A stretch of 43,831 bases of DNA from a virus. The position numbers and the translations under genes are program-made. The stretch is from the IMG/VR virus record IMGVR_UViG_3300046792_000046, positions 1 through 43,831 of that record. One strand, written 5' to 3'. Shown here in pieces: positions 698 through 43,739 of the stretch. The stretch's first letter is position 1, and every line of letters begins with the position of its first letter. The notes beneath the pieces were generated by a model. That model saw only the letters and a program-made list of their open reading frames with translations. It was not told where the DNA came from and searched no databases.

Positions 698-726
698 TTG
701 ACAGGCTAGTGGCCCGTTCCTAGGAA
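698..726 (+). promoter_or_regulatory. Possible early promoter overlapping a palindrome copy
   Basis: A perfect sigma-70 -35 hexamer TTGACA (698-703) is followed after exactly 17 nt by TAGGAA (721-726), which is part of the palindrome at 716-727. The -10 match is weak (3 of 6). If real, a protein bound to the palindrome would cover the promoter. The first gene begins about 310 nt downstream. Confidence 0.25.
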
Positions 727-727
727 C
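716..727. repeat. Dispersed palindrome, exact copy
   Basis: GTTCCTAGGAAC in the left noncoding region, placed over the possible -10 of a TTGACA promoter. Confidence 0.95.
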
Positions 728-1035
728 AATCGGAACAGTGTCGCAGTACCGTGTTAGCCCGACGAATAGTCCAAGGCATACCCGCTGTACTAGCGGATTG
801 TACAGACTGGGAATCGGGACGGAGCGACGCAAAGTTTCCGGCTAGGAAAGCCGTAGGGTGCATAAGTGGCGTCTGTCAATCGTGCTCAGGGAAGTCCTTT
901 CCCTCAGCTTGGGCATCACTAGCACCTAGGTGAATCTACCTAGGGCGTTGGTGTAAGCGGCAATCCTTTCCGTCCAATCGACACTCTCAACAGCGTAAGG
1001 CAAGGCCGCTTTCACCAGCGTATCAAGGAGCGTCC

Positions 1036-1221
1036 ATGCGAACCATCGGAAGCGTCCATCAGATTACGAAGCGCCTGACTACCGGAGCTTGGAACAACAT
1101 CGAGCTGCGCGGTCAGCGTGCCCGTAAGAAGAAGTACGAGAAGCCGGGGAAGGTGATCTATCTGGACCCGGCATTGTTCAACAAACCGGAAGGGAAAACC
1201 ACCGATGAACAAGAACTTTGA
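1036..1221 (+). CDS. Small basic protein of unknown function
   Basis: A 61-residue product starts at an ATG preceded by AAGGAG 7 nt upstream. It is rich in Lys and Arg in the middle (a RGQRARKKKYEKPGK stretch), which could suit nucleic-acid binding, but no family is recognised. It is the first gene of the rightward unit and overlaps the next gene by 17 nt, which implies translational coupling. Confidence 0.7.
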   Translation: MRTIGSVHQITKRLTTGAWNNIELRGQRARKKKYEKPGKVIYLDPALFNKPEGKTTDEQEL

Positions 1222-1663
1222 AATCGCAGCGAAGGCAGTGAAGAGCATCACGGGGAAGAGCGTTTCCCTGTGGGAAAACCTCGTCCTGTTTGCCGTGGCA
1301 ATGGACCCGACCACGGAGCCGAAGGAAAACTTCAAGACCGAAGAGCGGCTGGCGCGCACGGAAGTGAAGGTGGAAATCGGCAAGAATAGCACGTACCGCG
1401 TGGCGAAGGGCGTCATTGTCAACGCTCTGGCGAAGGGCGTGGCGCTGCTCGATGCCGACGGCAAGCCGCGTGGAAAGACGGACATCGAGGACCAATTGAA
1501 GGCAGCCAAGGTGAAGAAGTCGGCAGCCGACAGGTTCAAGATCGTGATGGCGAGCGCGAACACCATCGCGGACGAGCTGACGGACGCGGAGTGCATCAGC
1601 GCCGCTGCGTTGGCGAATGATCTGCTCAACAAGGTGAGCGCGTCTATCCGCAAGGCAGCCTAG
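1205..1663 (+). CDS. Unknown protein, paralogue of the 4608-5099 product
   Basis: A 152-residue, Ala/Lys-rich, probably helical protein. Its central part (YRVAKG, then LLDADGKPRGKTDIEDQ) matches a segment of the later gene product (WRTAKS, then LLDDTGTVKGKSGIEDE), and the order and spacing are the same. The two genes therefore look like an ancient duplication. The stop codon TAG shares its final G with the first base of a palindrome copy (1663-1674). No enzyme motif is visible. A DNA-binding or structural role in early infection is possible but unproven. Confidence 0.8.
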   Translation: MNKNFEIAAKAVKSITGKSVSLWENLVLFAVAMDPTTEPKENFKTEERLARTEVKVEIGKNSTYRVAKGVIVNALAKGVALLDADGKPRGKTDIEDQLKAAKVKKSAADRFKIVMASANTIADELTDAECISAAALANDLLNKVSASIRKAA

Positions 1664-1674
1664 TTCCTAGGAAC
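1663..1674. repeat. Dispersed palindrome, exact copy
   Basis: GTTCCTAGGAAC starts on the last base of the stop codon of the 1205-1663 gene and lies between that gene and the tRNA. Confidence 0.95.
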
Positions 1675-1689
1675 AACGGCTAGCGCAAG

Positions 1690-1755
1690 CTCAACTGCGA
1701 TACGTTGAGACGTGTCCTGCTACGTGACGTAGGTGGCAGCCGGGAATAGACCGGC
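1690..1755. other. Hairpin-rich spacer before the tRNA
   Basis: The gene-free stretch between the 1205-1663 gene and the tRNA contains CTCAAC/GTTGAG (1690-1709), a CTAC-GTGAC-GTAG hairpin near 1725 and a CCGG/CCGG stem near 1740-1754. These could be processing signals for the tRNA precursor. No ORF is visible. Confidence 0.35.
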
Positions 1756-1768
1756 AAGAACAACGAAC

Positions 1769-1854: not shown

Positions 1855-1865
1855 TCAATGGCGGG

Positions 1866-1934: not shown

Positions 1935-2012
1935 TATTGTGGACCGACGCTGCCCGCGTCTTTCCCGCCGCCCTACCCGCAGTACATCCGTAGTCCAAAC
2001 GTGGAGGTTCGC

Positions 2013-2843: not shown

Positions 2844-2919
2844 CACCACAACCAGGGGCACGGCTCGCGCGAAGAGGCGTGTACATCTGCAACCTGAAGC
2901 TCAGCAACAGGCGGCGTGA
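2716..2919 (+). CDS. Lys/Arg/Ala-rich small protein
   Basis: A 67-residue, very basic product (KKPVKQ, ARTAANKARKAAALERQRQRW, RAKRR) starts at an ATG with AAGAGG about 9 nt upstream. The composition suggests nucleic-acid binding or an unstructured tail. Its stop overlaps the next start as TGATG. No family is recognised. Confidence 0.6.
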   Translation: MPKKPVKQDSGSKTDHKAARTAANKARKAAALERQRQRWLARNTTTRGTARAKRRVHLQPEAQQQAA

Positions 2920-3149
2920 TGGCTGTCTCGTTCCTAGGAACATTCGGCATCTTCGATGTGGACGGCACTGTCGTTCCCATCGACAAAACGCAGGCTTTAC
3001 GACTGAAGGAATTGCTCCCTGATGGCCGTAACACTGGCGGCTATGTCGAGGCAATCAAGATGGTGCGTGATAAGCACAACCTCGGTCTGAAGGAAGCGAA
3101 GGATTTTGTGGACCACTACGAAGCTCACCACTTAGGTTCACGCAAGTAG
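2919..3149 (+). CDS. Protein with ribosomal L7/L12 C-terminal-like module
   Basis: A 76-residue product. The C-terminal half (AIKMVRDKHNLGLKEAKDFV) closely follows the conserved helix-turn of the ribosomal protein bL12 C-terminal domain (KxVRxxxxLGLKEAKxxV), which in the ribosome recruits translation GTPases. The N-terminal half has no visible homology. bL12-like genes are known in some phages, and a role in redirecting host translation factors is inference. Start ATG 2919 is preferred over GTG 2916 because it forms the TGATG overlap with the upstream gene. Confidence 0.75.
   Translation: MAVSFLGTFGIFDVDGTVVPIDKTQALRLKELLPDGRNTGGYVEAIKMVRDKHNLGLKEAKDFVDHYEAHHLGSRK
2930..2941. repeat. Dispersed palindrome, exact copy
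   Basis: Read as FLGT near the start of the L7/L12-like gene. Confidence 0.95.
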
Positions 3150-3162
3150 CAACGGGCAGTGG

Positions 3163-3469: not shown

Positions 3470-4032
3470 TGGACCAGCAGACCAGCACAAGTCCGGTCCA
3501 GTTGGGCAACGGGGACGCAGCTCGCACCGCAGCGAAAGCTGTGCTCAGAGTGCAAGCTGCTATCCCCGAGCAGTTCAGAAACAAAGCCCCGTTCGGGATC
3601 GACAGTCGTGTTGCATCGTGGTTCTTCGATAAGTTCCTGCCGCTCATTAGGTTCGGCAAGGTGCAAGTTGACACGTTCCAATACGAAGGCAAGCCCTACC
3701 ACAGAGTCACACTCAGCGTGCCCTTCCGTACCAGCACGTTCGTCGTCAATGCGTTCGGCGCTCACGGTGTGACCAGTACGTTGATTCGGTTCTTGCCAAT
3801 GACAGCGTTTGGTATGGCCATGCCCAACCTCTTGCTTCAAGACTTCGCCGGGACCGGAGACATCTACGTGCCGGGATGGGCGGCCCCGGAGTTGGCCGAG
3901 GACTTCATGAATCTGGTCCGCATCCACAAAGCACGAGTGGAGTTCGGACTCGACGAGCTGCGTCGCAGTCAGCTTCCGTTCCTAGGAACAGACAGCGACG
4001 CCGAGCAAGACAGCAAGCCGACGTTGCACTAG
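3469..4032 (+). CDS. Unknown 187-residue early protein
   Basis: Begins at the ATG within a GTGATG overlap with the previous gene. It has a helical N-terminal region (AARTAAKAVLRVQAAIP) and a central beta-rich region (VDTFQYEGKPYHRVTLSVPF). The acidic C-terminal tail contains a palindrome copy read as FLGT. No catalytic motif or known family is recognised. Confidence 0.75.
   Translation: MDQQTSTSPVQLGNGDAARTAAKAVLRVQAAIPEQFRNKAPFGIDSRVASWFFDKFLPLIRFGKVQVDTFQYEGKPYHRVTLSVPFRTSTFVVNAFGAHGVTSTLIRFLPMTAFGMAMPNLLLQDFAGTGDIYVPGWAAPELAEDFMNLVRIHKARVEFGLDELRRSQLPFLGTDSDAEQDSKPTLH
3978..3989. repeat. Dispersed palindrome, exact copy
   Basis: Read as FLGT near the C-terminus of the 3469-4032 product. 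Confidence 0.95.
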
Positions 4033-4287: not shown

Positions 4288-4570
4288 CAACGGAGTGCCG
4301 TCCAACAAAGGCGGCTACACCGTAGCAGTGAAGAGCAGGCCAAACGGGTTGTACTCCGTGAGTATCTGCCAGTGCAATTCCAATCAGGTGTACGACGAGA
4401 AGCTCGGTGAGAAGGTGGCCGAGCAACGCATCGGCAGCGGCAAGTTTTTCGTCCAGTCGAGGGCGGAATTGATTGCCACTCTCAACACCCTGCACACCAA
4501 GCTGTCGTCGGGCACTGTCGTGCGTCTCGATCTGAGCGAGCTTGGCGAAACGGAGAAGAAAGCGGCCTGA
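4235..4570 (+). CDS. Unknown 111-residue early protein
   Basis: The start is the ATG at 4235, preceded by GGAGAG 7 nt upstream. The longer frame from 4118 has a poor start and shadow-like composition. The product has an N-terminal beta-rich part (GGYTVAVKSRPNGLYSVSIC) and a C-terminal helix ending in EKKAA. No family is recognised. Confidence 0.7.
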   Translation: MLERNGRDIRYFHLRTRNNGVPSNKGGYTVAVKSRPNGLYSVSICQCNSNQVYDEKLGEKVAEQRIGSGKFFVQSRAELIATLNTLHTKLSSGTVVRLDLSELGETEKKAA

Positions 4571-4607
4571 CGTTCAACGCATCACACCACGCAAAGGGAA
4601 TAAGAAC

Positions 4608-5099
4608 GTGAGCGTCAACGAGAGCAACCCACTATACGAAGCCTGTGTTGGCTTCATGGTGGCGGAGAAGTCTGAGGCAGACAGTTGGGAGAAGGTGGCC
4701 CGGTTTGTCCAGACCAAGGTGGACAACGGCAGCGGCGACGAGGCGCAACTCAAGGCCGAGTTCTCCGTGGTCGAGAAGCAGATCAAGAAGGACTTCAGCG
4801 TGACCACACTGCCCACTGCGTGGCGCACGGCGAAGAGCACGGCAATGTCAGCGGCACGAGCAGAGGTCAGTCTGCTTGACGACACGGGCACAGTGAAGGG
4901 AAAGAGCGGCATCGAAGATGAAGTGCGCGGAAAGAAACTCGGCACAGATGTGCCCACCCTCGTCGAGAAGATTGTCGCTGACCTTAGCAACTCAGCTTCA
5001 CGGATGACAGGACTGCGCATCACGTCCCTCGATATGTTGCTGCTCGACGCGGCTGTCGAATCCGTCAACTACGCAAGGAGAACCTGCGTCGATGCTTAA
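4608..5099 (+). CDS. Unknown protein, paralogue of the 1205-1663 product
   Basis: A 163-residue product from a GTG with AAGGGA upstream; the only longer start would be TTG at 4542. The segment WRTAKS to GIEDEV aligns with YRVAKG to DIEDQL of the earlier gene, and the remainder has similar helical composition. The gene overlaps the start of the VWA/zincin gene by 8 nt, so it is coupled to the CobT/CobS-like pair and may work with it. No motif defines its function. Confidence 0.75.
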   Translation: MSVNESNPLYEACVGFMVAEKSEADSWEKVARFVQTKVDNGSGDEAQLKAEFSVVEKQIKKDFSVTTLPTAWRTAKSTAMSAARAEVSLLDDTGTVKGKSGIEDEVRGKKLGTDVPTLVEKIVADLSNSASRMTGLRITSLDMLLLDAAVESVNYARRTCVDA

Positions 5100-6879
5100 C
5101 CATCTGGAAATGGAACGGTACGTCGCAGCCACCGCTCGTCGGGCGGACATGCGCGTGCAGTGGGAACCCATCGAAGCGCCCCGCACAGATGGCAAGACCA
5201 TCTTCCTGCCCGCTATGGGTGCGGGCATCAGCCAGAAGGACTACAACCGGGTGCGGCACTTCGTTACCCACGAGGTAGACCACAACCTGTACACCGACTT
5301 CAAGAATCCAACCGCTATCGAGAAGGGGGTCAACTCCAGCAGCAGCTTGCTCGGTGCGATTTGGAATTTGAACGAGGACCACCGCATCGAGTTCCTAGGA
5401 ACACAGGAATACGAAGGCGACAGGCTGTGCTCCAACGATGTGTACGGCGACATCATGGACCAGCTCGCTGACGGGCTACGCAAGAACCCCAACCCCAATC
5501 TGGCGGACACGTTCCTGCCTCTCGCAGCGTGGTCGAACAAGGCATGGGCCGACTACTACCCGAGCGCCCATCTCGTGCAGGAATCCATCGAAGCTCGCCT
5601 GTCACCAAAGGCGAAGGCTTACTACGACAAGTTGAACAAGGGAGATTACCTGGATGTTCTTAGGAACATTCGGGAAGAGGCCGATCCCACGAAGGGCACG
5701 CAAGCCACGCTCGAACTGTCGCGCCGCATCTTCGACGAGGTGTATGGCGGCGACCACGAGAAGGAAGAGGAACGCTGCAAGCAACTGAAGCAAGCGCAGC
5801 AAGGTGAGGGTGGCGGTGAAGAAGGGGAAGAAGGCAAGGACAAAGGGAAGGGCAAAGCTAAGGGCAAGGGCACGCAGCAAGGTGAGGGCGAAGGTGAGCG
5901 CGACGACAGTGAAGGTCCGCCGATCAACGTGGACTACACATCAGTGATACGAGAAGCCCACGCCCCGGACCAAGGCGTTACCAAACGGGGAATGCACATC
6001 AACTACGGCGGTTTCCGTGGCACCAACAGCTACGTTCCGCCGACGGAGAAAGACTTCCTTGTACGGGACATGACGAACAACTCGGTGCCGCGCCGCTCTT
6101 CGGAGCCTGAGTATTACGAAGGCTCCATCAAGGACGCGCTGGCCAACACGTCGAGTGGCTTTGCTCATCGGGTACGCACCATCCTGCAAATCCGCAACCG
6201 GGACAAGTATCAGTACGGAACGAAGCGAGGCAAGCTGCACAACAGTGCGCTTCACCGGGTGCTGGTGAAGGATGTGCCCGGCTACGACGAGCGCATCTTC
6301 AAGAAGAAGCAGGTGAACAACGTACTCGACGCCGCTATCACGCTGATCGTCGATCAGTCTGGTTCGATGGGTGGCGATAAGTTTGTTCACGCATCGGCCG
6401 CTGCGGTGATGCTCAGCGAGACAGTGGGGAACATCCTGCACATCCCCACGGAAATCATCAGCTTCTCCACCGAGAGCGCACGCAGCAGCATCTTCATCCA
6501 CCGCAAGTTCAACGACAAGCTGGTATCCCGCGAGGACTTGACGCGCCGCTTCAACAAGGCTGCCGAGTACGGCATGTCCAGTAATGGGGATGGTGAGGCA
6601 ATCCTGTGGGCGTTCGACCGCATCATCCAGCGCAAGGAGAAACGCAAACTCATCGTGGTGTTCAGCGATGGCAGTCCTGCCTATGGCCAGCGTGGTGACG
6701 ATATGTACTACGCCAAGAAGGTGGTTCACGACATCGAAAAGGATTCGCCCGTGGACATCGTGGGCATCGGCATCATGGATCGGAACGTCGAGCTGATTTA
6801 CAAGGAGCATCAGGTCATCAAGAAGGCACACGAACTTGAGGGCGTGCTGTTGGCTCTCATCGAAAACAAACTGAAGTGA
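5092..6879 (+). CDS. CobT-like VWA protein with N-terminal zincin motif
   Basis: A 595-residue protein. The N-terminal part has an HEXXH motif (HEVDH, residues 60-64) followed near residue 94 by NEDHRIE, the arrangement seen in zincin-type CobT/VWA relatives. The middle is a Lys/Glu/Gly-rich low-complexity linker (about 225-280). The C-terminal part is a von Willebrand A domain with MIDAS residues DQSGS (421-425) and a later FSDGS (Asp 526). VWA proteins of this type pair with MoxR/CobS AAA+ ATPases, as in cobaltochelatase, and equivalent pairs are known in N4-like phages. Its partner ATPase is the next gene. Chelatase activity is not implied; a chaperone or remodelling role is more likely. 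The start has AAGGAG 10 nt upstream. Two palindrome copies fall inside (FLGT, VLRN). Confidence 0.9.
   Translation: MLNHLEMERYVAATARRADMRVQWEPIEAPRTDGKTIFLPAMGAGISQKDYNRVRHFVTHEVDHNLYTDFKNPTAIEKGVNSSSSLLGAIWNLNEDHRIEFLGTQEYEGDRLCSNDVYGDIMDQLADGLRKNPNPNLADTFLPLAAWSNKAWADYYPSAHLVQESIEARLSPKAKAYYDKLNKGDYLDVLRNIREEADPTKGTQATLELSRRIFDEVYGGDHEKEEERCKQLKQAQQGEGGGEEGEEGKDKGKGKAKGKGTQQGEGEGERDDSEGPPINVDYTSVIREAHAPDQGVTKRGMHINYGGFRGTNSYVPPTEKDFLVRDMTNNSVPRRSSEPEYYEGSIKDALANTSSGFAHRVRTILQIRNRDKYQYGTKRGKLHNSALHRVLVKDVPGYDERIFKKKQVNNVLDAAITLIVDQSGSMGGDKFVHASAAAVMLSETVGNILHIPTEIISFSTESARSSIFIHRKFNDKLVSREDLTRRFNKAAEYGMSSNGDGEAILWAFDRIIQRKEKRKLIVVFSDGSPAYGQRGDDMYYAKKVVHDIEKDSPVDIVGIGIMDRNVELIYKEHQVIKKAHELEGVLLALIENKLK
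5391..5402. repeat. Dispersed palindrome, exact copy
   Basis: Read as FLGT directly after the NEDHRIE motif of the VWA/zincin protein. Confidence 0.95.
5656..5667. repeat. Dispersed palindrome, one-mismatch copy
   Basis: GTTCTTAGGAAC, read as VLRN in the VWA/zincin gene, only 265 bp after the previous copy. Confidence 0.85.
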
Positions 6880-6882: not shown

Positions 6883-6894
6883 GTTCCTAGGAAC
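6883..6894. repeat. Dispersed palindrome, exact copy
   Basis: Lies in the 30-bp gap between the VWA gene and the AAA+ ATPase gene, just before the ribosome site (GAGAGGG) of the latter. Confidence 0.95.
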
Positions 6895-6909: not shown

Positions 6910-8007
6910 ATGATCGAGCTGGAAGCGAAGGTGAAGGAAGCGTTGCGCAAGCAACTGCTGGAGCGGGGCGCGGCGAACGCTGTGATGGCTGCGCCGGAAC
7001 CCACTCCGACCCCGGCTGAGCCGGAGAAGGAAATCGAGGTTGTGCTCAAGGCCAACCAAGTGCTGTTCAGCAAGCTGACCGGCACGACCAAGACCGAACT
7101 GAAGAAGCGCAAGCTGCGCGACTTCGCGGTGACGCTGCTGGACGTGGCGTCCATCCCGACGCAGGTCAAGGCGTTCATCCCCACCAAGAACACGGCCTAC
7201 AACATCCAGGTGGACGAGGCCCATGCGCTGATGTTCGCTTGGGAATTGGGCGAGAAGGTGCTCATCACTGGCCCGACAGGTTCGGGCAAGTCCAGCCTCA
7301 TCGAGTACTGCTGCGCCCTCACCCATCGACCGCTCATCCGGGTCAACATGACCGGCGACATGGAGTCGGCAGTGCTGTTCGGGCAGCTCGTGGTGGAGAA
7401 CGGCGGCACCGTCTGGAAGGATGGGCCGGCTACCGAGGCCGTGCGCTACGGTGCGGTGCTGCTCAATGACGAGTGGGACGTGACCCCGCCCGAGATTTTG
7501 TTCGGCTTCCAGTGGTTGTTCGAGGACAAGGGCAAGCTGTTCCTCAAGGAAATGCCGGGCGACTCGGAGAGCAAGTTCATCACGCCACACGACAACTTCC
7601 GCATGGTGTGTGCCGGTAACACAGTGGGCCAAGGTGACGATACGGGCCGCTACTCTGGCACCAACGTGCAGAACAACGCCACCATCGACAGGTTCCAGAC
7701 CACAATCGTGCTGGACTACCTCGACGCGGTACACGAAACCAAGATCATCGAGGACAACTGCACCGGCCTGTGGCCGGGATTCGCCAACAAGATGGTGAGC
7801 TTCGCCAACCTCGTTCGCACGGCGTCGAAGCAGAACAACATCAACCTCACCATGTCGCCCCGCACCCTCATCAACTGGGGACGCAAGGCCGTGGTGATGA
7901 ACGACATGAAGCGAGCACTGGTCCTCTCGTTCGTGAACAAACTCCGCGACACCGACCGCAAGATTGTGTCCGAGTTCTACACGAAGGTGTTCGGCGGGAC
8001 GCTGTAG
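6910..8007 (+). CDS. MoxR/CobS-like AAA+ ATPase
   Basis: A 365-residue AAA+ ATPase. Walker A is GPTGSGKS (residues 121-128). Walker B-like LLNDEWD has acidic residues 187-188. Later AAA+ elements include a sensor-like FRMVCAGNTVG and an arginine-rich C-terminal helix. Its position after the VWA gene reproduces the MoxR-VWA partnership, in which ATP hydrolysis remodels a target presented by the VWA protein. CobS-like ATPases occur in many phages with unknown targets. The N-terminal 100 residues are helical and may bind the partner. The stop TAG shares its G with the next palindrome copy. Confidence 0.9.
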   Translation: MIELEAKVKEALRKQLLERGAANAVMAAPEPTPTPAEPEKEIEVVLKANQVLFSKLTGTTKTELKKRKLRDFAVTLLDVASIPTQVKAFIPTKNTAYNIQVDEAHALMFAWELGEKVLITGPTGSGKSSLIEYCCALTHRPLIRVNMTGDMESAVLFGQLVVENGGTVWKDGPATEAVRYGAVLLNDEWDVTPPEILFGFQWLFEDKGKLFLKEMPGDSESKFITPHDNFRMVCAGNTVGQGDDTGRYSGTNVQNNATIDRFQTTIVLDYLDAVHETKIIEDNCTGLWPGFANKMVSFANLVRTASKQNNINLTMSPRTLINWGRKAVVMNDMKRALVLSFVNKLRDTDRKIVSEFYTKVFGGTL

Positions 8008-8018
8008 TTCCTAGGAAC
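8007..8018. repeat. Dispersed palindrome, exact copy
   Basis: Starts on the last base of the ATPase stop codon. It is read as VPRN in the integrase frame. Confidence 0.95.
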
Positions 8019-8633
8019 GAAGAGAATGCCAGAGACAGGTACGTCGAACACCTTGAGCTGCGCCGCTTTGCCAAGCGATGCTGTCCAGATTGGCTCCGTG
8101 CCTATCTACTCCTCAAGTACCTCACCGGACTACGTATGGGTGACATGCTTCGGCTCGACAATTCGGCTGAAGGTGCGCGAGGACTCGTCGTCAGGATCGG
8201 TAAAAGCAGACGACGTAAGGTTCTGGAATTCAGATGGACAAGGGCGCTACGCACCACAGTTGGATTCATTCATCGACTTGGGCAAGGTGAAGCTGAGCAC
8301 GCTGACCAACCCAAAGGAAAAGCAGATAGCGACCGATGCCCGAGACGGGAAGTCGGTGAAGAATCGAATGGTAGCTCGTCTCACCAACAATTCTTCCGAA
8401 CTCGATCTGGTGGACGACTCAGTGTCAGTGGGTTTAAGAGTGCGTGGCGACGTGCCATGCAGCAATGGAAAGGATTAGGGAATGAACCCTTCAGAGAACA
8501 CGACATCCGAGGAAAAACCGGAAGCGATAGTGGAACTCTCGCTGAAGCATCCGAGCGCCTTGGCCATGACCGCACCAGTACCACTGCTAAGCACTACCGG
8601 CGGGGTGTCAGTAGGGTCCGTCCCCTCCGGTAG
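8007..8633 (+). CDS. int: Tyrosine recombinase (integrase) catalytic domain, start unresolved
   Basis: The frame encodes a complete tyrosine-recombinase catalytic core: the box I Arg in LTGLRMGDMLRL (codon 8133), a beta-hairpin Lys (8202), HxxR in HDIRGKTG (8499-8510), LGH (His at 8565) and the nucleophile Tyr in KHYRRG (8595). The protein would join phage DNA at attP, about 350 bp downstream, with a host tRNA gene. There is no ATG, GTG or TTG in this frame between the upstream ATPase sequence and ATG 8136, which lies inside box I. The only near-cognate codon is CTG 8058. The usual N-terminal core-binding domain is absent. Expression could need a frameshift from ATG 8026 or from the ATPase gene, or this may be a truncated gene or contain a sequence error. 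The coordinates mark the open frame from the ATPase stop. Confidence 0.75.
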   Translation, partial: VPRNEENARDRYVEHLELRRFAKRCCPDWLRAYLLLKYLTGLRMGDMLRLDNSAEGARGLVVRIGKSRRRKVLEFRWTRALRTTVGFIHRLGQGEAEHADQPKGKADSDRCPRREVGEESNGSSSHQQFFRTRSGGRLSVSGFKSAWRRAMQQWKGLGNEPFREHDIRGKTGSDSGTLAEASERLGHDRTSTTAKHYRRGVSRVRPLR

Positions 8634-8940: not shown

Positions 8941-8976
8941 ACACTTGCGGTTTTCTTAGACAGGACCACACGTAAG

Positions 8977-9025
8977 TGGCGGAGCGGACGGGACTCGAAC
9001 CCGCGACCCCCGGCGTGACAGGCCG
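8977..9025 (-). other. attP: attP core: 3' part of a tRNA-Asp gene
   Basis: Read on the minus strand, these 49 nt run from the 5' side of the anticodon stem through the loop CTGTCAC (anticodon GTC, Asp), variable loop GGGTC, T arm GCGGG-TTCGAGT-CCCGT, acceptor CCGCTCC, discriminator G and CCA. They agree with proteobacterial tRNA-Asp sequences as I recall them. The 5' half of the tRNA (D arm, acceptor 5' strand) is missing, so it is not a functional tRNA. A 3' tRNA fragment next to an integrase is the classical attP core, which restores the host tRNA on integration. Confidence 0.85.
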
Positions 9026-9039: not shown

Positions 9040-9051
9040 GTTCCTAGGAAC
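9040..9051. repeat. Dispersed palindrome, exact copy
   Basis: Noncoding, 14 bp beyond the tRNA-derived attP core. Confidence 0.95.
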
Positions 9052-9433: not shown

Positions 9434-10278
9434 GCATTCCTCGTGAGCATATTCATCCTCACATCCCCGCAGTAGGCCAGCAGATTAACGTCAACCACGA
9501 CGAGTGTCCGGCGGGTCGAGACACCCGCCAACGCTTGTACATCAAGCGCACACCCGAGGCAGTGCTGGCCTACTGCCACAACTGCAACGGCCACCTAGTC
9601 GAACGCACGCACAACAAAGTGCGACCGATGGCGCTGTTGGAAAAGCTGATACGCGAAGGGGAAGCCACTGAACTCATCCAGCAGGAAGTCAAAATGCCTG
9701 ACGATGCGACTTCCCTTCCCCACGAGTGGCCACCCGAAGCCCTCGCCTGGGTGTACCAGTACAACCTCGACGACACCGACATTCTCAGACACGGCATCAG
9801 CTATTCCCCCTCATGGGGACGTGTCATCTTGCCCGTGTATGACGGCGGCAAGCTCATCTTCTGGCAAGGCCGACGAGTCAACGAAACCCCTGCTCCCAAG
9901 TACATCAGCGTGCGCTCAGCGCACAAGCCGCTGTTCACGGTGATGGCCCTACCACACACCCCTGCCATCATCACACGAACTGTAGCCATTGTTGAGGACT
10001 ACCTCAGCGCACTCCGCATTGCCAAGAGCGGAGCGGCCGACGCCATTGCGCTCCTAGGAACAGATGGTCCAAGCGACTTGCCCTCCCGCCTATCGGGATA
10101 CAGGAAGATTTTGGTGTGGCTCGATGCGGACCATGCCGGAAGAACGAAGGCCGGACCATTGGCAACACGACTGTCCACGACGACACGCTGCAAGGTGGGA
10201 ACCATTACATTCAAGCAGCCGAAAGAATGCACAGACGGAGAAATCTACACCGCAGTCGTAGACACCAGCTACAAGTAA
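9430..10278 (+). CDS. DNA primase (zinc-binding and TOPRIM domains)
   Basis: A 282-residue primase like the primase half of T7 gp4, making RNA primers for lagging-strand synthesis. The N-terminal zinc ribbon uses Cys 26 and the CHNC pair (Cys 49, Cys 52), with His 23 or His 55 as the probable fourth ligand. The TOPRIM core has Glu 189 in IVEDYLSA and the metal-binding LDAD (Asp 232, Asp 234). Primase and helicase are separate genes here, unlike the fused T7 protein. The start is GTG, overlapping the previous stop. A palindrome variant is read as LLGT inside the TOPRIM domain. Confidence 0.9.
   Translation: MSIPREHIHPHIPAVGQQINVNHDECPAGRDTRQRLYIKRTPEAVLAYCHNCNGHLVERTHNKVRPMALLEKLIREGEATELIQQEVKMPDDATSLPHEWPPEALAWVYQYNLDDTDILRHGISYSPSWGRVILPVYDGGKLIFWQGRRVNETPAPKYISVRSAHKPLFTVMALPHTPAIITRTVAIVEDYLSALRIAKSGAADAIALLGTDGPSDLPSRLSGYRKILVWLDADHAGRTKAGPLATRLSTTTRCKVGTITFKQPKECTDGEIYTAVVDTSYK
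10050..10061. repeat. Dispersed palindrome, one-mismatch copy
   Basis: GCTCCTAGGAAC, read as LLGT in the primase TOPRIM domain. Confidence 0.8.
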
Positions 10279-10306: not shown

Positions 10307-11563
10307 TTGGACCTCGATTTACTGTCACTCGTATCGGACAAGGATAAGTTCCAACGCTTCAAGCCCTACATCAAGGAACACGTCCTCAGCAAAGAAGCAC
10401 AGCTCATCTTCAACACCATCGACGGGTACTACAAGGGTTTCCCGGCGATCAAGAGCATCGACTGGTCAGCGTTCGAGAGCTACTTCCTTGTTCTTAGGAA
10501 CGCTCAGATCAGGAAAGAGTTGGTCCCCAACTTCAAGACCATCTTCGAGAAGCTGCGCACCTTTGTGAGTTCCGTGGCAACCGATGAAGTGTTGCGCCAT
10601 TACGTCACACAGGACTACGCCACACAGATAGCGGATACGGCCCTGAAGGTGAACGAGGGCAGCGCCACCATCGACGACATCGGTGAGCTGGTGAAGCAGC
10701 ACGACAAGGAGCTAGGCCGAGCAATCAACCTCGCTGACCTGTTCGTGTCGAGCGATGTGTCCGAAGTGCTTACGCTGTCCAGTGCTCCCGGTTTGGACTG
10801 GCGGCTCGAAGAGTTGAACATCAGCCTCGGCCCTCTTCGCAAGGGAGACTTCACGCTGGTGATGGCCTACGTCGAGACAGGCAAGACGACGTTCGTTGCC
10901 GATCAAGTTAGCCACATGGCCACGCAAGTCAAGGACGCCCGGCCAATCATTTGGGTGAACAACGAAGAGCGTAGCAACAAGGTGATGCTACGTGTGCAGC
11001 AGGCTGCATTGGGCCGCACGCTCAAGGACATTCAAGCAGACCCGAAGAAAGCAGCGGCCGACTTCGACGCCCTGATGGGGATGAAAAACCGAATCATGAT
11101 CCTCAACAACGACGCCGGTTTGAACAGCGTGGACAAGTTGGTCCCAATCATTCGGGATTCCAACCCTGCCCTCATTGTGTTCGACCAGCTCGACAAGGTG
11201 TCGGGCTTCCGCGAGAAGGACCAGAAGGACCACCTGCGTCTTGGTCGTCTCTACCAATGGGCACGGGAGTTGAGCCACGAGTACTGCCCTGTCATTGCAG
11301 TGTCGCAGTCGGATGCCAGTGGCTCTACATCAAAGTACCTGACGATGGATCAGCTACGCGGCAGCAAGGTGGACAAGCCCGGCGAGGCTGACGCCATCAT
11401 CACCATCGGCAAGGACAGCGATCCTGCCAAACCATACACGCGATACATCCACGTTCCTAAGAACAAATTGTTCGGCGGACCACGCACAGAAGAGAAGGAG
11501 CGACATGGCTACTGGGAAGTTGAAATCAAGCCCGACATTGCCCGATACGAAGGAACTCGCTGA
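10307..11563 (+). CDS. DnaB-type replicative helicase
   Basis: A 418-residue RecA-fold helicase with an N-terminal helical region (1-150) and an ATPase core. The Walker A-like motif is AYVETGKT (187-194), lacking the usual first Gly. Walker B is ALIVFDQ. A C-terminal DnaB-like pattern (IAVSQSDAS, then LRGSKVDKPGEADAII) is visible. It unwinds DNA ahead of the phage polymerase and should work with the primase upstream. The start appears to be TTG 10307. The only nearby ATG (10294) is in another frame, so low-level initiation or another start is possible. Two palindrome variants fall inside, as VLRN and VPKN. Confidence 0.85.
   Translation: MDLDLLSLVSDKDKFQRFKPYIKEHVLSKEAQLIFNTIDGYYKGFPAIKSIDWSAFESYFLVLRNAQIRKELVPNFKTIFEKLRTFVSSVATDEVLRHYVTQDYATQIADTALKVNEGSATIDDIGELVKQHDKELGRAINLADLFVSSDVSEVLTLSSAPGLDWRLEELNISLGPLRKGDFTLVMAYVETGKTTFVADQVSHMATQVKDARPIIWVNNEERSNKVMLRVQQAALGRTLKDIQADPKKAAADFDALMGMKNRIMILNNDAGLNSVDKLVPIIRDSNPALIVFDQLDKVSGFREKDQKDHLRLGRLYQWARELSHEYCPVIAVSQSDASGSTSKYLTMDQLRGSKVDKPGEADAIITIGKDSDPAKPYTRYIHVPKNKLFGGPRTEEKERHGYWEVEIKPDIARYEGTR
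10490..10501. repeat. Dispersed palindrome, one-mismatch copy
   Basis: GTTCTTAGGAAC, read as VLRN in the helicase N-terminal region. Confidence 0.85.
11453..11464. repeat. Dispersed palindrome, one-mismatch copy
   Basis: GTTCCTAAGAAC, read as VPKN near the helicase C-terminus. Confidence 0.85.
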
Positions 11564-11756: not shown

Positions 11757-13746
11757 CATTCGTGGTGCAATCGTCGATGTAGAAACCACGATGAAGTGCC
11801 CGGTGGGGAGCAACAAAGCCAACCCCTTCTGGCCGGAGAACGAGATTGTTCTTCAAGGCGCACAGGCTCTCGATAACGACAACTACGCCATCTGCTCCGG
11901 GCCATCGGAACCTACCGGCGGACCAAAGACTGAAGGTGCGTTGGTTGTTGCACATAACGCTGCGTTCGATTTGCACTACCTCCTGAAGCATGGGGTGTAC
12001 TCGCAGCAAGCACTGGCCAAGGCCCATCTATGGGACACGCAGCTTGCTGAGTATTTGCTGAGCGGACAGCAGCACAAGTTCCCAAGCCTGGACGAATGCG
12101 CTGCCGAGCGTGGCGGCACACTCAAGGACAACCGTGTCAGTGTGATGTTCGAGGCTGGCAAGGGAGCCGAGGAAGTTCCTAGGAACATGCTGGAGGACTA
12201 CCTCAAGGCTGACCTGAAGAACACACAGACGGTGTTCTGGAGCCAGTACAAGGAAGCGATGGAGAAGGGGCTGCTGCCCCTCATGCACAGCCAGATGGAT
12301 GCACGACTCGCCACCATCGAAATGCAGTACAACGGGCTGGCCATAGACAAAACAATGCTCGAAGTAGAGCGGGACAAACTTGAAATTGAAGTTGCTATGT
12401 TGGGTTCACAGTTGCGCTACGAAGGCGAGTGCGTTTCAGGATTTTCTCTCGACCCCACCAAGCCGCAGCAATTGGCCAAGGTGTTGTTCGGGGGCCAAAT
12501 CACCCTCAAAGAGAAAGAAGCAGACGGTTTCTACAAGAATGGCAAACCCAAATTCAAGACGGTGGATCGAGTCGTAAGCACGTCAGGGTTTGGGATTACG
12601 TGCAAATCCGCGTGGCGGAACGAGAGCGGCCCAAGCACGGCTGACAACGTGCTCGAAGAATTGCTGACCACAACCATGTCTCCGATGTGCCGGGGTTTCA
12701 TCGAGAAGGTGCAGGACTACCGGGACAAGTCGAAGCAGTTGTCCACCTACTACGACGGCATCAGCGACTTGCTCATGCCTGACGGCCGCATCCACCACAA
12801 CCTCAACCATTGCGTGACGGTGACGGGGCGGCTGAGCAGCAGCGAACCCAACCTACAGAACATGACGGACGGTGCCAAGGGCGGCATCAAGAAGGTGTTC
12901 GTGAGCAGGTGGGGCAAGGACGGCTACATCGTCGAAGCCGACTACAGCCAGTTGGAAATGATTGTGCTGGCCGCGTTGAGCGGCGACAGTATGCTTACGC
13001 ATGACATTCTTACCGGCACGGACATGCACGACGCGCTGTACAGAACGATGCACGGCACTGCGCTCTCAAAGGAAAAGCGCAAGTCGTTCAAGCGGTGTGC
13101 CTTCGCGTTAGTGTACGGCGGTGGCGTCAACGCTATCTCAAAGCAGGGTAAGTGTAGCGAGGATGAGGCCCGCCGATTCAGGGATACGTTCTACGCCCGC
13201 TATCCAGGTGTGAAGTTGTGGCACGAACGTGTGTGGCAAGAGGTCACTATCTCCCGTACCTACGAAGGTGCCAAGGACAAGGACACTGGCCTTCCTATAG
13301 GGACTGGCTTGTACATCAGCCCGATCAGTGGTCGTCACCTTCGCTTCCGCGAGTATGTACAGGAGGACTGGGGCGGCAAGCAGGTGCTCAGGTTCAGCAA
13401 CACCGAGACGAAAAACTACCCCGTACAGAGTGGGGCCACAGCGGACATCGTGCCGCTGATGGTTGGCCGACTCTACCGTGTTCTTAGGAACAACCCGAGG
13501 CTGTCGGACAAGGCGCTGCTCATCAACACAGTACACGACAACGCGATGCTTGACGTGCATAAAGATGTGCTCGAAGAGACGCTGCGTGTGGTACGACAGG
13601 TTCTTGAGAGCGCACCACAAGTTGTGAAAGAGACATTTGGGTACGACTTTCCGCTGCCGCTCAAGGTGGCAGTGAGCTGCGGACCCAATTGGTTTGACCA
13701 AGAAGAAGTGATGAACACTCCCATCAACGAAAGGAAGGCAGCATGA
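11737..13746 (+). CDS. Family A DNA polymerase with 3'-5' exonuclease domain
   Basis: A 669-residue T7-type replicative polymerase. The exonuclease has motif I VDVETT (Asp 14, Glu 16), motif II HNAAFD and motif III with YLKADLKNT. The polymerase has motif A EADYSQLE (Asp 402), motif B KRKSFKRCAFALVYGG and motif C. In motif C the usual HDE is replaced by HDN (His 600, Asp 601, Asn 602); both metal-binding Asp residues remain, so activity is expected. Its length fits T7-type enzymes. The start is GTG 11737, within the previous gene, with GTG 11749 as an alternative. Palindrome copies are read as VPRN and VLRN. Confidence 0.95.
   Translation: MTSSVDSIRGAIVDVETTMKCPVGSNKANPFWPENEIVLQGAQALDNDNYAICSGPSEPTGGPKTEGALVVAHNAAFDLHYLLKHGVYSQQALAKAHLWDTQLAEYLLSGQQHKFPSLDECAAERGGTLKDNRVSVMFEAGKGAEEVPRNMLEDYLKADLKNTQTVFWSQYKEAMEKGLLPLMHSQMDARLATIEMQYNGLAIDKTMLEVERDKLEIEVAMLGSQLRYEGECVSGFSLDPTKPQQLAKVLFGGQITLKEKEADGFYKNGKPKFKTVDRVVSTSGFGITCKSAWRNESGPSTADNVLEELLTTTMSPMCRGFIEKVQDYRDKSKQLSTYYDGISDLLMPDGRIHHNLNHCVTVTGRLSSSEPNLQNMTDGAKGGIKKVFVSRWGKDGYIVEADYSQLEMIVLAALSGDSMLTHDILTGTDMHDALYRTMHGTALSKEKRKSFKRCAFALVYGGGVNAISKQGKCSEDEARRFRDTFYARYPGVKLWHERVWQEVTISRTYEGAKDKDTGLPIGTGLYISPISGRHLRFREYVQEDWGGKQVLRFSNTETKNYPVQSGATADIVPLMVGRLYRVLRNNPRLSDKALLINTVHDNAMLDVHKDVLEETLRVVRQVLESAPQVVKETFGYDFPLPLKVAVSCGPNWFDQEEVMNTPINERKAA
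12175..12186. repeat. Dispersed palindrome, exact copy
   Basis: Read as VPRN in the exonuclease domain of the DNA polymerase. Confidence 0.95.
13480..13491. repeat. Dispersed palindrome, one-mismatch copy
   Basis: GTTCTTAGGAAC, read as VLRN upstream of polymerase motif C. Confidence 0.85.
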
Positions 13747-35980: not shown

Positions 35981-37773
35981 GCCGGTGCCGTGTTCCTAGG
36001 AACATTTTGAGGAGGGGCTTGCATGTCCCCGCTTTGTAGTTCGGAGGGCATCTGTCCTTCGGCGTGTAGGTTCTCCGTCGCAGTCTGAGCAAGACGTTGA
36101 GTCTCGGCCTGCTCTGTTACCAGGGCATTGTCCTTAACGATGCCGAAGCTCTTCCAGCCGAGGGTTTCACTGAGCGCCTTGGCCACGGCCTTGCCTGAGA
36201 TGTGCGCCGCCACAGACGGAATCTTCTCGACGAGCTGGAGGGTTTGGTTCAGCTCTTGGATGAACATGGCTTCCTCGGCGTAGTGCCGAGCACCGATGGC
36301 GTAGAACCGGCCCTTAGCCGTGATGTCATCCTTGGTGATGTCCACGAACTTCTGTGTGCCATAGTCGGCATCCACAATACGCACCGAGTCCTTGGCACCC
36401 ATCTTCCGCACTGCTTCCTCCAGCATGGAGTTGAGCAGCGGCTCAATGATGTTTCGCTCAAACCAACTCACCTTCGCTTGGAAGATGCGGCCCGCGCCAT
36501 TCTCCAACACCTGCACTTCGTACTTGGTCTTTTCGCCAGGGGAGCGAATGCCCATTGCCTGCTTCGGGGCACCGGCCAACTCCTCCATCCGGTTCATTAG
36601 GGTTTGGATTTCCATGTCCGCCCCAAGCGCCGCCGCTTCCGGGCGCTCGAACGTCACGTCTCCATCATCCCCGCACTGAATCTTCACGCCTGGACCGAAC
36701 GTGAAGTTCTCCACCGTGCTGCCTTTAATCTTGATGATCGGGTGGGCAATCTGGTCGAACACGTCCGCCTTCAGGTTCTCAAGGTGGTCGATTCGATATT
36801 GCATCCCAACGAGCTGGTCGAGCGGTCCCTGCGACCACAGGTTGTCAGGCCGCAGCCGCCAGCCGCATTGCTTGATCGGCCGACTGCCTGTCCAACTCGG
36901 GTTGTCGATGTTGCGCAGAATCCAGCGTCGGTCCACCACCGTGATGATTTTGTCCTTGTAGAAGGTCTTGGTGGATTCGTCGTACAAGTCACCGTAGAAG
37001 TCCAGCAGCTCCACCATGCCCGAGTCGAAGTACTGGTTGATGGACCCGAAGCCGTCGATGATGAGGCCATCATTCTTGAGAGCATCAATCTGGTCGGCAC
37101 CAGCAACTCGAAGTGCATTCACCTTGTCGAGTACAGCCGGGTTGTATTGAAGGTCAGGCTTCTCCTTCACGTCCCTTTGCAAGTCGCCCAGGCTCTTCAA
37201 CCGACGAACGATGCAGGGTGAACGATCAAAGGAAGTGGCCGTGGCATCGAACACGATGTCGAGGGCGCTGATACGCACAGCCCGAGGTCCGGCATACACC
37301 ACTTCTTCCTCTTGGTTGGCCGGGTCTTTCTTGACGATGGAGACATACTCGTGCCCGGCGAACACGTTGCCGTAGTCGATGTAGTCATACACGAGCTGGC
37401 TGACGAGCGTCTCAAAGTCGGACGCGCACAACTTCGTCCGCATGTAGGACTCAATCTTGTCCCGCTTGTCCTTGCTCGTGCTGTCGCTGTCGGCTGCTTC
37501 CCACTTGAACCAGTCCTCACGCGGGAAGAGCGCCGCCATGTAGTTGGCGTGCAGGTTGTCCCGAATCTGCGTGAGCTTCGGTGTCACCGTCGAGTTCTTC
37601 CACGGCAATTGACCATTCGTGGTTTTGTGCGTATCCGTAGCGAAGAGGTATTGACGCAGCTCCTTCTTCTCATTGAGCCACTGCGTCCGTGCAGCAGTCC
37701 ACCGGACCCAGGTGTCAGCAACAACCCGCGCCTCGTTGTCCTTCAAGAACCTACTGTCAAGTACATCAGACAC
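35977..37773 (-). CDS. Portal protein
   Basis: A 598-residue protein. An N-terminal helical region (WLNEKKELRQYLFA) is followed by KLTQIRDNLHANYMAALFP and DWFKWEAADSDS, an arrangement typical of podovirus head-tail connectors. Position directly after the terminase and before head genes supports it. I take GTG 37773 as start because it overlaps the upstream TAG by one base; the longer frame from 37824 is out of keeping. A palindrome copy is read as VPRN five residues from the end. Confidence 0.85.
   Translation of the reverse strand: MSDVLDSRFLKDNEARVVADTWVRWTAARTQWLNEKKELRQYLFATDTHKTTNGQLPWKNSTVTPKLTQIRDNLHANYMAALFPREDWFKWEAADSDSTSKDKRDKIESYMRTKLCASDFETLVSQLVYDYIDYGNVFAGHEYVSIVKKDPANQEEEVVYAGPRAVRISALDIVFDATATSFDRSPCIVRRLKSLGDLQRDVKEKPDLQYNPAVLDKVNALRVAGADQIDALKNDGLIIDGFGSINQYFDSGMVELLDFYGDLYDESTKTFYKDKIITVVDRRWILRNIDNPSWTGSRPIKQCGWRLRPDNLWSQGPLDQLVGMQYRIDHLENLKADVFDQIAHPIIKIKGSTVENFTFGPGVKIQCGDDGDVTFERPEAAALGADMEIQTLMNRMEELAGAPKQAMGIRSPGEKTKYEVQVLENGAGRIFQAKVSWFERNIIEPLLNSMLEEAVRKMGAKDSVRIVDADYGTQKFVDITKDDITAKGRFYAIGARHYAEEAMFIQELNQTLQLVEKIPSVAAHISGKAVAKALSETLGWKSFGIVKDNALVTEQAETQRLAQTATENLHAEGQMPSELQSGDMQAPPQNVPRNTAPA
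35992..36003. repeat. Dispersed palindrome, exact copy
   Basis: Read on the minus strand as VPRN at the C-terminus of the portal protein. Confidence 0.95.
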
Positions 37774-40845: not shown

Positions 40846-41201
40846 CAAATCGACTCAGCTTTATGAAACTGCGACCATTCCGCATGGGCAGGAACAGCTT
40901 GTCCATGCGAGACAACAGACGCCCACACATCATCACCGTCCCGAATCCAGCACATCGAAAGGCTGTGTCCATCCCGATAAACCATGCCCTTTTGAAACTT
41001 CGAGGCCAGTTCTTCAGTGACGATGGACAGCGCCACCTTGTCAGTGCAAGGCACGCCTTCGTAAAGGTAGACTTTGGTGTGCTCTCCCTCAGCGACAAAA
41101 GTGTTCCTAGGAACACTTGCATCAGCAAGTGTTTCTCCCTTGACAAGCGTCGAGAAAAACAACATCACGGCGAGTACTATCGCCAGCAACTTCTTTCTCA
41201 C
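40845..41201 (-). CDS. Small exported protein
   Basis: A 118-residue protein with an N-terminal signal peptide (RKKLLAIVLAVMLFFSTLVKG) and a soluble part with two Cys (VPCTDK, MCWIRDGDD). GTG 41201 has GGAGG 5 nt upstream. It lies between two holin-like genes, so a role in lysis is possible. A palindrome copy with the longest symmetric flanks in the genome is read as VPRN just after the signal peptide. Confidence 0.75.
   Translation of the reverse strand: MRKKLLAIVLAVMLFFSTLVKGETLADASVPRNTFVAEGEHTKVYLYEGVPCTDKVALSIVTEELASKFQKGMVYRDGHSLSMCWIRDGDDVWASVVSHGQAVPAHAEWSQFHKAESI
41099..41118. repeat. Dispersed palindrome, exact copy with extended 20-bp symmetry
   Basis: The 12-bp core (41103-41114) is flanked by AAGT and ACTT, giving a perfect 20-bp palindrome. 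An adjacent hairpin (AACACTTG, 41112-41119, with CAAGTGTT, 41126-41133) competes for the right arm. Confidence 0.95.
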
Positions 41202-41390: not shown

Positions 41391-41393
41391 GGC

Positions 41394-41687: not shown

Positions 41688-41710
41688 ACTGCTTCCTTTC
41701 GCTTAGTTGA

Positions 41711-43618
41711 TTAGACGAGTGTCACTGACTTCAAAGTACCAGCGTCGTTGTAGAACAACTTCACCGTGCCACCAGAAGTATCTTTCCACACTGTAAATTG
41801 ACTCGCGCTCAAATCTGCTAGAGCAAGAGCACCTGCACCACTTCTTGCCTTTAGAATCACACCATTTCCGCCAGCCAACCCAACTGCAAATATATCGGCA
41901 ACACTGTTTTGTGTGATGTACTGAAGTCCAATCAAGTCACCACTGTTGGCACCGTTGCGCCAATTGATTGCACCACCATTGTTGAGTGCAATTTGGCCAC
42001 TTGACGAAACTGGTGCACCGCCATTGGTAACAGTTATTTGGTTGCTGTTGACCACAAAACAATTGCCAATAGCTACCCCACCCCCAGTTGCAGCAATGGT
42101 CGGGTTGCCAGCAGCAGAGCCGGTGATGATGATGTTGCGGGTTGCGGAGGCAGTGTGAAGAATTTGAAGTTGGGTTGGCCCTGCGCCAAAAGCATCGGTG
42201 ATGAAGGTGAATACTCCCGTACCTTTTGTGCGAAGCAGACCTGTGACGTTGGCATCGCTTCCAGTGAACGAAAGTGCAGCCGGATTCCCTGTGGTGTTTC
42301 CGACAACTTCGATATGATTTGTGAGCGTCGTACCGCCATGATTCACTACAAAACCAGTTTCCCCGCCATTCGTCTTGAGCGAAAGCGACCCGGTTGTGCC
42401 GGAGTCGATGATGGGGGTGAACACGGCGGCGATTCTTTGCGACGAGATTCCTAGTGTTGGTCCATTGTCAACATTGGGGGATAACTGAGTCGTATTGGCA
42501 AACCAAGTATTTACGCCGTTGACTTGAAGCTGAACAGAAGTTCCGGTAGCTGAATTTAGGTCTAGCGTTCCGGTACTACTCACCAGCGGCGTCACCACGC
42601 TCGTACCGAAGGTTCCAGAAGCGAAGCGGTTGCCAACGTTCCCAAGGCTCATTGCGTTGTCAACAGCAGGATTGATGGCTACGTTGTTGTATTGCAGAGC
42701 GATAGAACCGTTGTATTTGAGACTGACAATGGTAGCCGTGTCTGTTCCAAGCAGCGGCGTCACCACGCTTCCGACGGTCACAGCGCCAGTCGCCAGATCG
42801 AGCACCATCCGATTGGCAATACCCTGGTCGTTGAAGTTCAGGACATTCCCCTGCTGCTGAATCTGCGCGTTCTTCGTAGCGCCAGAAGAAGGCACGAATA
42901 GAAGTTGTGGGGTGGGCACCGCACCCAATTGAACAAGGGGTGTCACGACACTCACCGGGACCGTCACAACTCCCGCAGTGCCAATTGACAACTGAGAAGC
43001 AGCAGTTAGCGTTGCGTCGTTGTAGTCCGCAAGACCACTTGTTACCCCAAAAAGGAAAGCTCCTGAAGCCCCACCTGCAATGAAGAATTCTTTGGCACCT
43101 GCTCTAAAGAATGAGAGTACGGGTGCCTTGTTTGCGGCAGCGTCGCCAGTTATACGAATCGAGTGCTGACCTCCATCTGATAGACCAACTTGAATATCGG
43201 AATTGCCTGAAGCACCATTCACGCCAGTAACACGCACCACCCCATTAACCTGAAGGGTAGACGAGGGAACATTGGTTCCAATCCCAAGCCGCTTGTTCGT
43301 GTTGTCCCAAGCGAGATTGGAGTCTTGGGTGAGTCCTGCTCCATTGCCGAAGATGAGCAGGCCAGCAAACACTGTGCTAGCCAGGGTGGGGAGCAGTCCT
43401 ACATCCTGCTTGCGCAGCGGCTCCGTGGCGTTGACTGGAGCAGGGAGATTGAGGATGCGCTGGCTGTTGGCATCCAGGTTGGCGAGCAGGGTATTGGGTG
43501 ATGTGCCGTCACGAGAGACGGTGTTATCCATCGCCGCAACAATGGCGGCGAAGTTGGCGTTGAGCACGGCAATGTCGCCGTAGCCGCCAGTGAGAGTGGA
43601 GAGGGAGAGCTTGGACAC
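41711..43618 (-). CDS. Tail fibre protein
   Basis: A 635-residue Gly/Thr/Asn/Val-rich beta-repeat protein. The N-terminal region (LNANFAAIVAAMDNTVSRDG, NTLLANLDANSQRILNLPAP) is the virion-attachment segment common to many phage fibres; the rest consists of repeated beta strands likely to trimerise and bind the host surface. The ORF ends without a recognised peptidase or chaperone domain. GTG 43618 has AAGAGG upstream. It is the first gene of the leftward late unit and contains no palindrome copy that I found. Confidence 0.85.
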   Translation of the reverse strand: MSKLSLSTLTGGYGDIAVLNANFAAIVAAMDNTVSRDGTSPNTLLANLDANSQRILNLPAPVNATEPLRKQDVGLLPTLASTVFAGLLIFGNGAGLTQDSNLAWDNTNKRLGIGTNVPSSTLQVNGVVRVTGVNGASGNSDIQVGLSDGGQHSIRITGDAAANKAPVLSFFRAGAKEFFIAGGASGAFLFGVTSGLADYNDATLTAASQLSIGTAGVVTVPVSVVTPLVQLGAVPTPQLLFVPSSGATKNAQIQQQGNVLNFNDQGIANRMVLDLATGAVTVGSVVTPLLGTDTATIVSLKYNGSIALQYNNVAINPAVDNAMSLGNVGNRFASGTFGTSVVTPLVSSTGTLDLNSATGTSVQLQVNGVNTWFANTTQLSPNVDNGPTLGISSQRIAAVFTPIIDSGTTGSLSLKTNGGETGFVVNHGGTTLTNHIEVVGNTTGNPAALSFTGSDANVTGLLRTKGTGVFTFITDAFGAGPTQLQILHTASATRNIIITGSAAGNPTIAATGGGVAIGNCFVVNSNQITVTNGGAPVSSSGQIALNNGGAINWRNGANSGDLIGLQYITQNSVADIFAVGLAGGNGVILKARSGAGALALADLSASQFTVWKDTSGGTVKLFYNDAGTLKSVTLV

Positions 43619-43664
43619 TACGAACGCCTCTTGTTGGGCGCTTCAAAAGGTGTGGTGCTTGAGA

Positions 43665-43679
43665 AGATTTAGACAGCAG
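43665..43679 (-). promoter_or_regulatory. Late-leader motif, copy 2
   Basis: Second copy of AGATTTAGACA-N-CAG with CTT four bases before it, about 50 nt upstream of the tail fibre start. A promoter or activator role is inferred only from the repeat and its position. Confidence 0.4.
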
Positions 43680-43689
43680 ATACGAAAGA

Positions 43690-43717
43690 AAGTTCCTTGT
43701 ACTAGGGAACTTTTCTA
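43690..43717. terminator. Hairpin at the right end, possible terminator
   Basis: AAGTTCC and GGAACTT arms enclose TTGTACTAG. On the plus strand TTCT follows, and on the minus strand the arm is followed by TCTTTCG. It could stop transcription crossing the genome ends in either direction. The arms resemble those of the 428-468 hairpin. Confidence 0.4.
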
Positions 43718-43727
43718 GTGTGGCATT

Positions 43728-43739
43728 GTTCCTAGGAAC
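43728..43739. repeat. Dispersed palindrome, exact copy
   Basis: Noncoding, in the leader region of the late unit, 110 bp upstream of the tail fibre gene. The remaining 92 bp to the window end hold no gene that I can support. Confidence 0.95.

Follow-up and report, generated by a model that had tools for sequence, protein, structure and literature searches.

The window analysed here is the whole of IMG/VR record IMGVR_UViG_3300046792_000046, 43,831 nucleotides of viral DNA, and our subject is a palindrome, GTTCCTAGGAAC, that recurs along its full length. The window has the gene repertoire of a Zobellviridae-like podovirus whose early (+) and late (−) arms converge, and DNA polymerase, helicase, primase, Cas4-type exonuclease, CobT/CobS-like, capsid, portal and terminase genes are recognizable. 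The capsid protein is 46–47% identical to those of cobaviruses, for example SIO1 and ICBM1, and the portal and terminase are ∼46–59% identical to those of most relatives that lack the palindrome array. Judged by these three homologous proteins and the convergent arms, the phage would belong with the Zobellviridae (Cobavirinae-like).

The original prediction, drawn from this DNA alone, had listed 20 exact copies of the palindrome and 9 with one mismatch, and our motif count reproduced every coordinate. Copies with two mismatches numbered only 2, and a reversed, uncomplemented control pattern gave 0 matches. A contig that equals the window over the compared part (G005) bridges the window's two ends through a short missing stretch, and this end-joining stretch holds an extra copy, GTTCTTAAGAAC, bringing the total to 29–30 sites. 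Sites are given below in window coordinates with no strand assigned, together with four features on which the argument leans; G001, G003, G009 and G015 are related contigs.

716–727: exact copy, intergenic
1205–1663, + strand: X paralog 1, 152 amino acids, candidate cognate DNA-binding protein
1663–1674: exact copy; its G is the final base of the X paralog 1 stop codon
2167–2178: exact copy within a PagP-like gene
2930–2941: exact copy within an L7/L12-like gene
3978–3989: exact copy, coding
4542–5099, + strand: X paralog 2, 185 amino acids as called, TTG start, directly upstream of cobT
5391–5402: exact copy, cobT-like gene; codons shared with G003
5656–5667: one-mismatch copy (YTAR variant), cobT-like gene
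6883–6894: exact copy between cobT and cobS
8007–8018: exact copy at the cobS stop; encodes integrase VPRN; integrase deletion junction
8007–8633, + strand: tyrosine integrase C-terminal remnant, N-terminal half missing
8973–9025, − strand: tRNA-Asp 3′ half (anticodon loop to CCA), attP-like
9040–9051: exact copy 14 bp past the tRNA-Asp 3′ fragment; arrangement common to G003 and G009
10050–10061: one-mismatch copy, primase gene
10490–10501: YTAR variant, helicase gene; codons shared with G003 and G009
11453–11464: YTAR variant, helicase gene; codons shared with G003, G009, G015 and G001
12175–12186: exact copy, DNA polymerase gene
13480–13491: YTAR variant, DNA polymerase gene; codons shared with four relatives
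14536–14547: exact copy, coding, Asp/Asn hydroxylase-like
15618–15629: exact copy, Cas4-type exonuclease gene; codons shared with G003, G009 and G015
16719–16730: exact copy, HNH gene
18031–18042: one-mismatch copy, coding
18588–18599: YTAR variant, coding
20273–20284: exact copy, late gene; codons shared with G003
22179–22190: exact copy, late gene; codons shared with four relatives
24463–24474: YTAR variant, internal virion protein gene; codons shared with three relatives
26527–26538: YTAR variant, internal virion protein gene; codons shared with two relatives
27853–27864: exact copy near the start of an internal virion protein gene; codons shared with four relatives
32406–32417: exact copy, tail gene; codons shared with four relatives
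35992–36003: exact copy near the portal gene end
41103–41114: exact copy near the start of a late gene
43728–43739: exact copy, intergenic, right end

Selection on the palindrome as DNA, which had been claimed at the outset, was borne out by the codon-preserving control proposed along with the claim. Exact copies in coding sequence numbered 14, against a mean of 0.06 in synonymous-codon shuffles (maximum 2 in 1000), and coding copies of GTTC-YTAR-GAAC numbered 21, against a mean of 0.14 (maximum 2). Conserved codon positions and enrichment in relatives, described below, support the same conclusion. It is extremely improbable that the motif reflects an RNA signal, a codon habit or a palindrome iterated throughout the host genome. 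GUUC-YUAR-GAAC could form a short hairpin, but its stem bases show no compensatory variation and sites occur in coding and non-coding DNA alike; we rejected the RNA hairpin because the stem is invariant. Codon habit is countered by the shuffles, which abolish the motif. A host-wide palindrome was likewise rejected: the bacterial genomes sampled held just 1–4 near-matches each, with no enrichment among the matches listed.

When oriented by transcription the sites look asymmetric, with A at position +12 in 24 of 29, much as in the stoperators of mycobacteriophages. We examined this asymmetry by reading frame in 174 sites from 16 contigs, using automatic and partly wrong gene calls, which would blur a frame pattern rather than create one. 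T was found at −1 in 83 of the 106 sites where −1 is a wobble base and A at +12 in 33 of the 43 where +12 is one, while non-coding sites were alike on both sides (T at −1 in 18/25, A at +12 in 21/25). The asymmetry thus tracks the reading frame, and the sites have one symmetric unit of 14 bp, the palindrome TGTTC-YTAR-GAACA; an oriented, stoperator-like asymmetric site was rejected, the orientation being a codon-frame effect. Spelled out, this A-type palindrome is TGTTCCTAGGAACA, and the B-type counterpart that we describe below is GTTACTAGTAAC. Outer arms are nearly invariant, variation falls mainly at the central C/T and G/A, and coding sites are confined to the two frames that avoid a TAG stop. 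Recognition by a dimer, also part of the original prediction, is backed by the consensus, which is symmetric after correction for codon frame. The palindromes almost certainly constitute one distributed site array for a homodimeric DNA-binding protein, which would recognize TGTTC-YTAR-GAACA on double-stranded DNA.

Sites are concentrated in the early arm (20 of 29, p 0.007), where mean spacing is 941 bp with a coefficient of variation of 0.33 versus 0.93 for random placement, an evenness reached by 0 of 5000 simulations; in the late arm they fall about every 2–3 kb. Spacing is also even in the G003 early arm and in G009, G001 and G015; another relative, G032, is not evenly spaced, nor are most B-type contigs. 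Six of the 29 sites lie at least partly outside the merged gene calls (p 0.015); the median distance to a gene end is 98 bp versus a random 201 bp (p 0.024), and coding constraint could cause both patterns. The spacing bears on a structural alternative, in which the dimer, likewise phage-encoded, would bridge, condense, segregate or mark replicating phage DNA and would have no primary role in transcription. Such an array would fit spacing that is even by distance, with several copies per long gene, and it would fit the coverage of late genes too, the symmetric, unoriented sites and the retention of the array in relatives without a detectable recombinase. Yet a purely structural array does not need the higher density of the early arm, and no ParA/ParB or SMC-like protein was seen among the families searched, a search that was not exhaustive. 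We regard this alternative as possible but rather doubtful.

Individual sites keep their places in some relatives. In G003, whose proteins are ∼56% identical, 11 of the 16 coding sites that could be aligned lie at the same nucleotide column, where 0.015 would be expected, and the same holds for 8 of 12 in G009, 7 of 11 in G015 and 6 of 12 in G001 (expected 0.010–0.015). By contrast, no column is shared with G032 (0/10) or G002 (0/5), so the sites are long-lived yet turning over. Position conservation in related phages, which had been put forward as a check, is thereby found in four of them.

An exact 14-mer scan of IMG/VR retrieved several related contigs with many copies: 31 sites in G003, 22 in G009, 15 in G002 (which carries a distant terminase), and further sites in G001 and G015 (13). 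Among other relatives with the array, G058 has 22 sites and the contig G059 has 10. Nine GenBank Zobellviridae or relatives lack the array, and GenBank phages queried with the DNA of two joined sites gave no match. The idea of a phage-specific signal had been said to fall if relatives lacked enrichment or if the motif were as frequent in the host; instead relatives are enriched, and the bacterial genomes sampled show no abundance of the motif.

A second set of relatives, ∼130 loci, was collected independently of the motif, through profiles of the helicase and CobS. Most of these have no A palindrome and instead carry TTACTAGTAA (B), in up to 18 copies per 21 kb. The wider form of B, RTTA-YTAR-TAAY, has the YTAR centre in common with A, and the two differ by one base pair per half-site. 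In the helicase tree B is a single clade within a paraphyletic A, indicating one A-to-B switch. Conversion of A sites into B sites in place was rejected, with 0 coincidences in 1073 redundant comparisons where 1.19 were expected.

Iterated palindromes of other kinds were noted among relatives. The array-less Vibrio phage 1.139.A (L224) has its own, TATACATGTATA, in 8 copies, and L489 (IMGVR_UViG_3300005753_000035), a relative without X, has the dyads ATAAC-N3-GTTAT (8) and TAACA-N1-TGTTA (7).

Could the recognizer belong to the host? The palindrome would then serve a host protein as operator, a Verrucomicrobia-type LexA being one example, and would act as a silencer or decoy. Erill et al. are said to have described in 2016 a Verrucomicrobia LexA operator, TGTTC-N4-GAACA, that has the same outer 5+5 bases and the same spacing. 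That operator nonetheless differs in its free N4, its few promoter sites per genome and its host-encoded regulator, whereas N4 in the array is strictly YTAR and the sister clade alters one of the fixed outer bases. No LexA_DNA_bind was found in the window, and the tRNA-Asp fragment discussed below points to beta- or gammaproteobacteria (Verrucomicrobia were outside that sample). Host regulator sites are therefore unlikely in our view, and we consider it likely that the recognizer of the array is encoded by the phage.

Window proteins conserved in the group were made into profiles and searched against all genomes. Family X, a protein of ∼150–185 amino acids that adjoins cobT and has two paralogs in the window, was the sole early family to track the array, being present in G002, G032 and 6 of 7 far A loci and in 0 of 9 array-less references. 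B-type phages have a diverged X (X-B) at the same place. Among the relatives collected through the helicase and CobS profiles, loci with a clear X-B match have no A sites, and those with a strong match to the A-type form (X-A) have at most one B site, so that no crossed case was seen. Homology between X-A and X-B is supported by hhalign (probability 95%, E 3e-8), and the two have RSAKSV and GKSxL blocks in common. Fairly confident structure predictions (pLDDT 85 and 87) show both as helical proteins in which a helix is followed by a short pair of strands, an arrangement compatible with a winged helix. BFVD matches to X were to uncharacterised viral proteins only, and tblastn with one X-A and one X-B query found no X in 50,697 GenBank phage records. 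Co-occurrence of family and palindrome suggests that X, the best candidate in the window, is probably the recognizer of the array. A complete tRNA-Tyr gene (1769–1854) lies directly after X paralog 1.

Tyrosine integrases with R, K, HxxR, GH and Y blocks are encoded by G001, G003 and G009, and in part by G015. Homology of the window to these integrases begins exactly at VPRN, that is, at the palindrome copy at 8007, which directly joins the stop of cobS. In G003 a copy follows cobS (35306) and another lies at the same integrase codons (35951), so that a deletion between two copies explains the truncated integrase of the window. The window is probably an integration-defective phage amid apparently temperate relatives, its integrase broken at a palindrome copy, and for its subgroup a strictly lytic life style is disfavoured by the integrase. 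The same junction would fit restriction, modification or recombination sites (Chi-like, or the target of a phage methylase), with recombination between two copies. A single deletion could be explained by any 12-bp direct repeat, however, and Chi-like signals are not known to be palindromes. The modification target offered as an alternative in the original prediction found no support: a 12–14-bp palindrome with fixed outer arms and even spacing is unlike a methylase target. Sites of this kind are very unlikely to explain the array.

In G003 and G009 the tRNA-Asp fragment is likewise conserved next to the integrase, and each time a palindrome copy lies ∼14 bp beyond it, an arrangement as would be expected of an attP core. 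Among 20 bacterial genomes sampled, it matched Polynucleobacter exactly and Cupriavidus, Pseudoalteromonas and Halochromatium with one mismatch, making a beta- or gammaproteobacterial host likely. There was no match within 3 mismatches in the sampled alphaproteobacterial, Bacteroidota, Planctomycetota and acidobacterial genomes, Verrucomicrobia being outside the sample.

Two known systems resemble the array. Cluster O mycobacteriophages (Corndog) have 17-bp dyad repeats, TGTTCGG-N3-CCGAACA, and the sections of the Cluster O report drawn on here describe >30 near-invariant dyad-symmetric sites genome-wide, many intragenic and denser at one end, for which a dimer site was predicted and function left unexplained (PMC4351075). 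The window likewise has 29–30 dyad-symmetric sites, most of them inside gene calls, but of a different sequence, TGTTC-YTAR-GAACA. Cluster O also differs in its spacer and in belonging to mycobacterial siphoviruses with no integrase and no lysogens, and those sections propose no cognate protein (PMC4351075), whereas the window lineage offers X as a candidate. Beyond what is described for Cluster O, the window lineage shows a second specificity in a sister clade, conservation at the level of codons, spacing measured to be even and, in one subgroup, an integrase. Corndog-type phages pose the same puzzle, having a comparable array but no integrase; their authors concluded that the repeats are not for transcription initiation (PMC4351075), a view similar to the structural alternative.

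Cluster A phages (L5, Bxb1) have up to ∼30 distributed stoperators per genome (PMC6550527, PMC9283540), and these sites and their repressors diverge together (PMC6550527). The window, with 29 copies at ≤1 mismatch, falls within the ∼25–35 near-identical distributed sites of a stoperator system, and further likenesses are a specificity that diverges with a phage-encoded protein (here candidate X) and apparently temperate relatives. A stoperator is an asymmetric 13-bp site that follows the direction of transcription and binds its repressor as a monomer (PMC6550527, PMC9283540), whereas the window sites are symmetric and X has no detectable relation to any family searched. The stoperator parallel drawn in the original prediction is strengthened by the integrase and attP-like site of the window's subgroup, and weakened by the symmetry of the sites and by the lack of a detectable integrase in most array-bearing relatives.

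We tentatively read the array, at somewhat less than even odds, as a stoperator-like genome-wide brake operated by a phage-encoded dimer, probably X. The protein would be bound about every kb in the early arm and every 2–3 kb in the late arm, and the bound array would brake transcription or act as a roadblock to it; in the integrase-carrying subgroup it would silence the prophage, and in relatives without integrase it would perhaps limit early transcription. The brake is ranked first on three grounds: the higher site density of the early arm, the presence of an integrase and an attP-like site in the window's subgroup, and a joint switch of site and protein that resembles how stoperators and repressors diverge in Cluster A (PMC6550527). 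We still give weight to the structural alternative because of the symmetric sites, even spacing and recombinase-free relatives. Silencing or a roadblock, as opposed to a structural role, is itself a tentative choice.

Several results weigh against the brake or against X as its agent. The main weakness is that with a single A-to-B switch the co-variation of X amounts to one comparison, not many. X has no relative in Pfam, PHROGs or PDB sequence, and Foldseek found no solved fold for it. G059, with 10 sites, has no X match, only 1.4 kb upstream of its cobT being present, and few or no matching sites were found in divergent X-A phages (L447, L451, L452, L467, L478 and L483) or divergent X-B phages (L457 and L475). 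The asymmetric, transcription-oriented site of stoperators is lacking. Most array-bearing relatives have no detectable integrase, and no tyrosine or serine recombinase match was obtained in G058 (despite its 22 sites), G059, G032, G002 or the searched B-type records.

Distributed operator arrays, already known from Cluster A and, unexplained, from Cluster O, appear here in an unrelated podovirus lineage. Chances are about even, in our estimate, that an undescribed phage DNA-binding family, X, and a ruler-like array of 14-bp palindromes make up a silencing or genome-organizing system kept by a large lineage of uncultured podoviruses, whether temperate or not, and that site and protein changed specificity jointly, through one base pair in each half-site. 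With one candidate protein, dozens of genomes and two specificities found in nature, the role of a genome-wide palindrome array can be tested directly.

Other genes of the window were noted along the way. At 2916–3149 a small protein matches the ribosomal L7/L12 C-terminal domain (Pfam E 4.7e-6), and at 2101–2604, in the podovirus early region, lies a PagP-like gene (lipid A acylation family). An aspartyl/asparaginyl beta-hydroxylase-like protein is encoded at 14276–14830.

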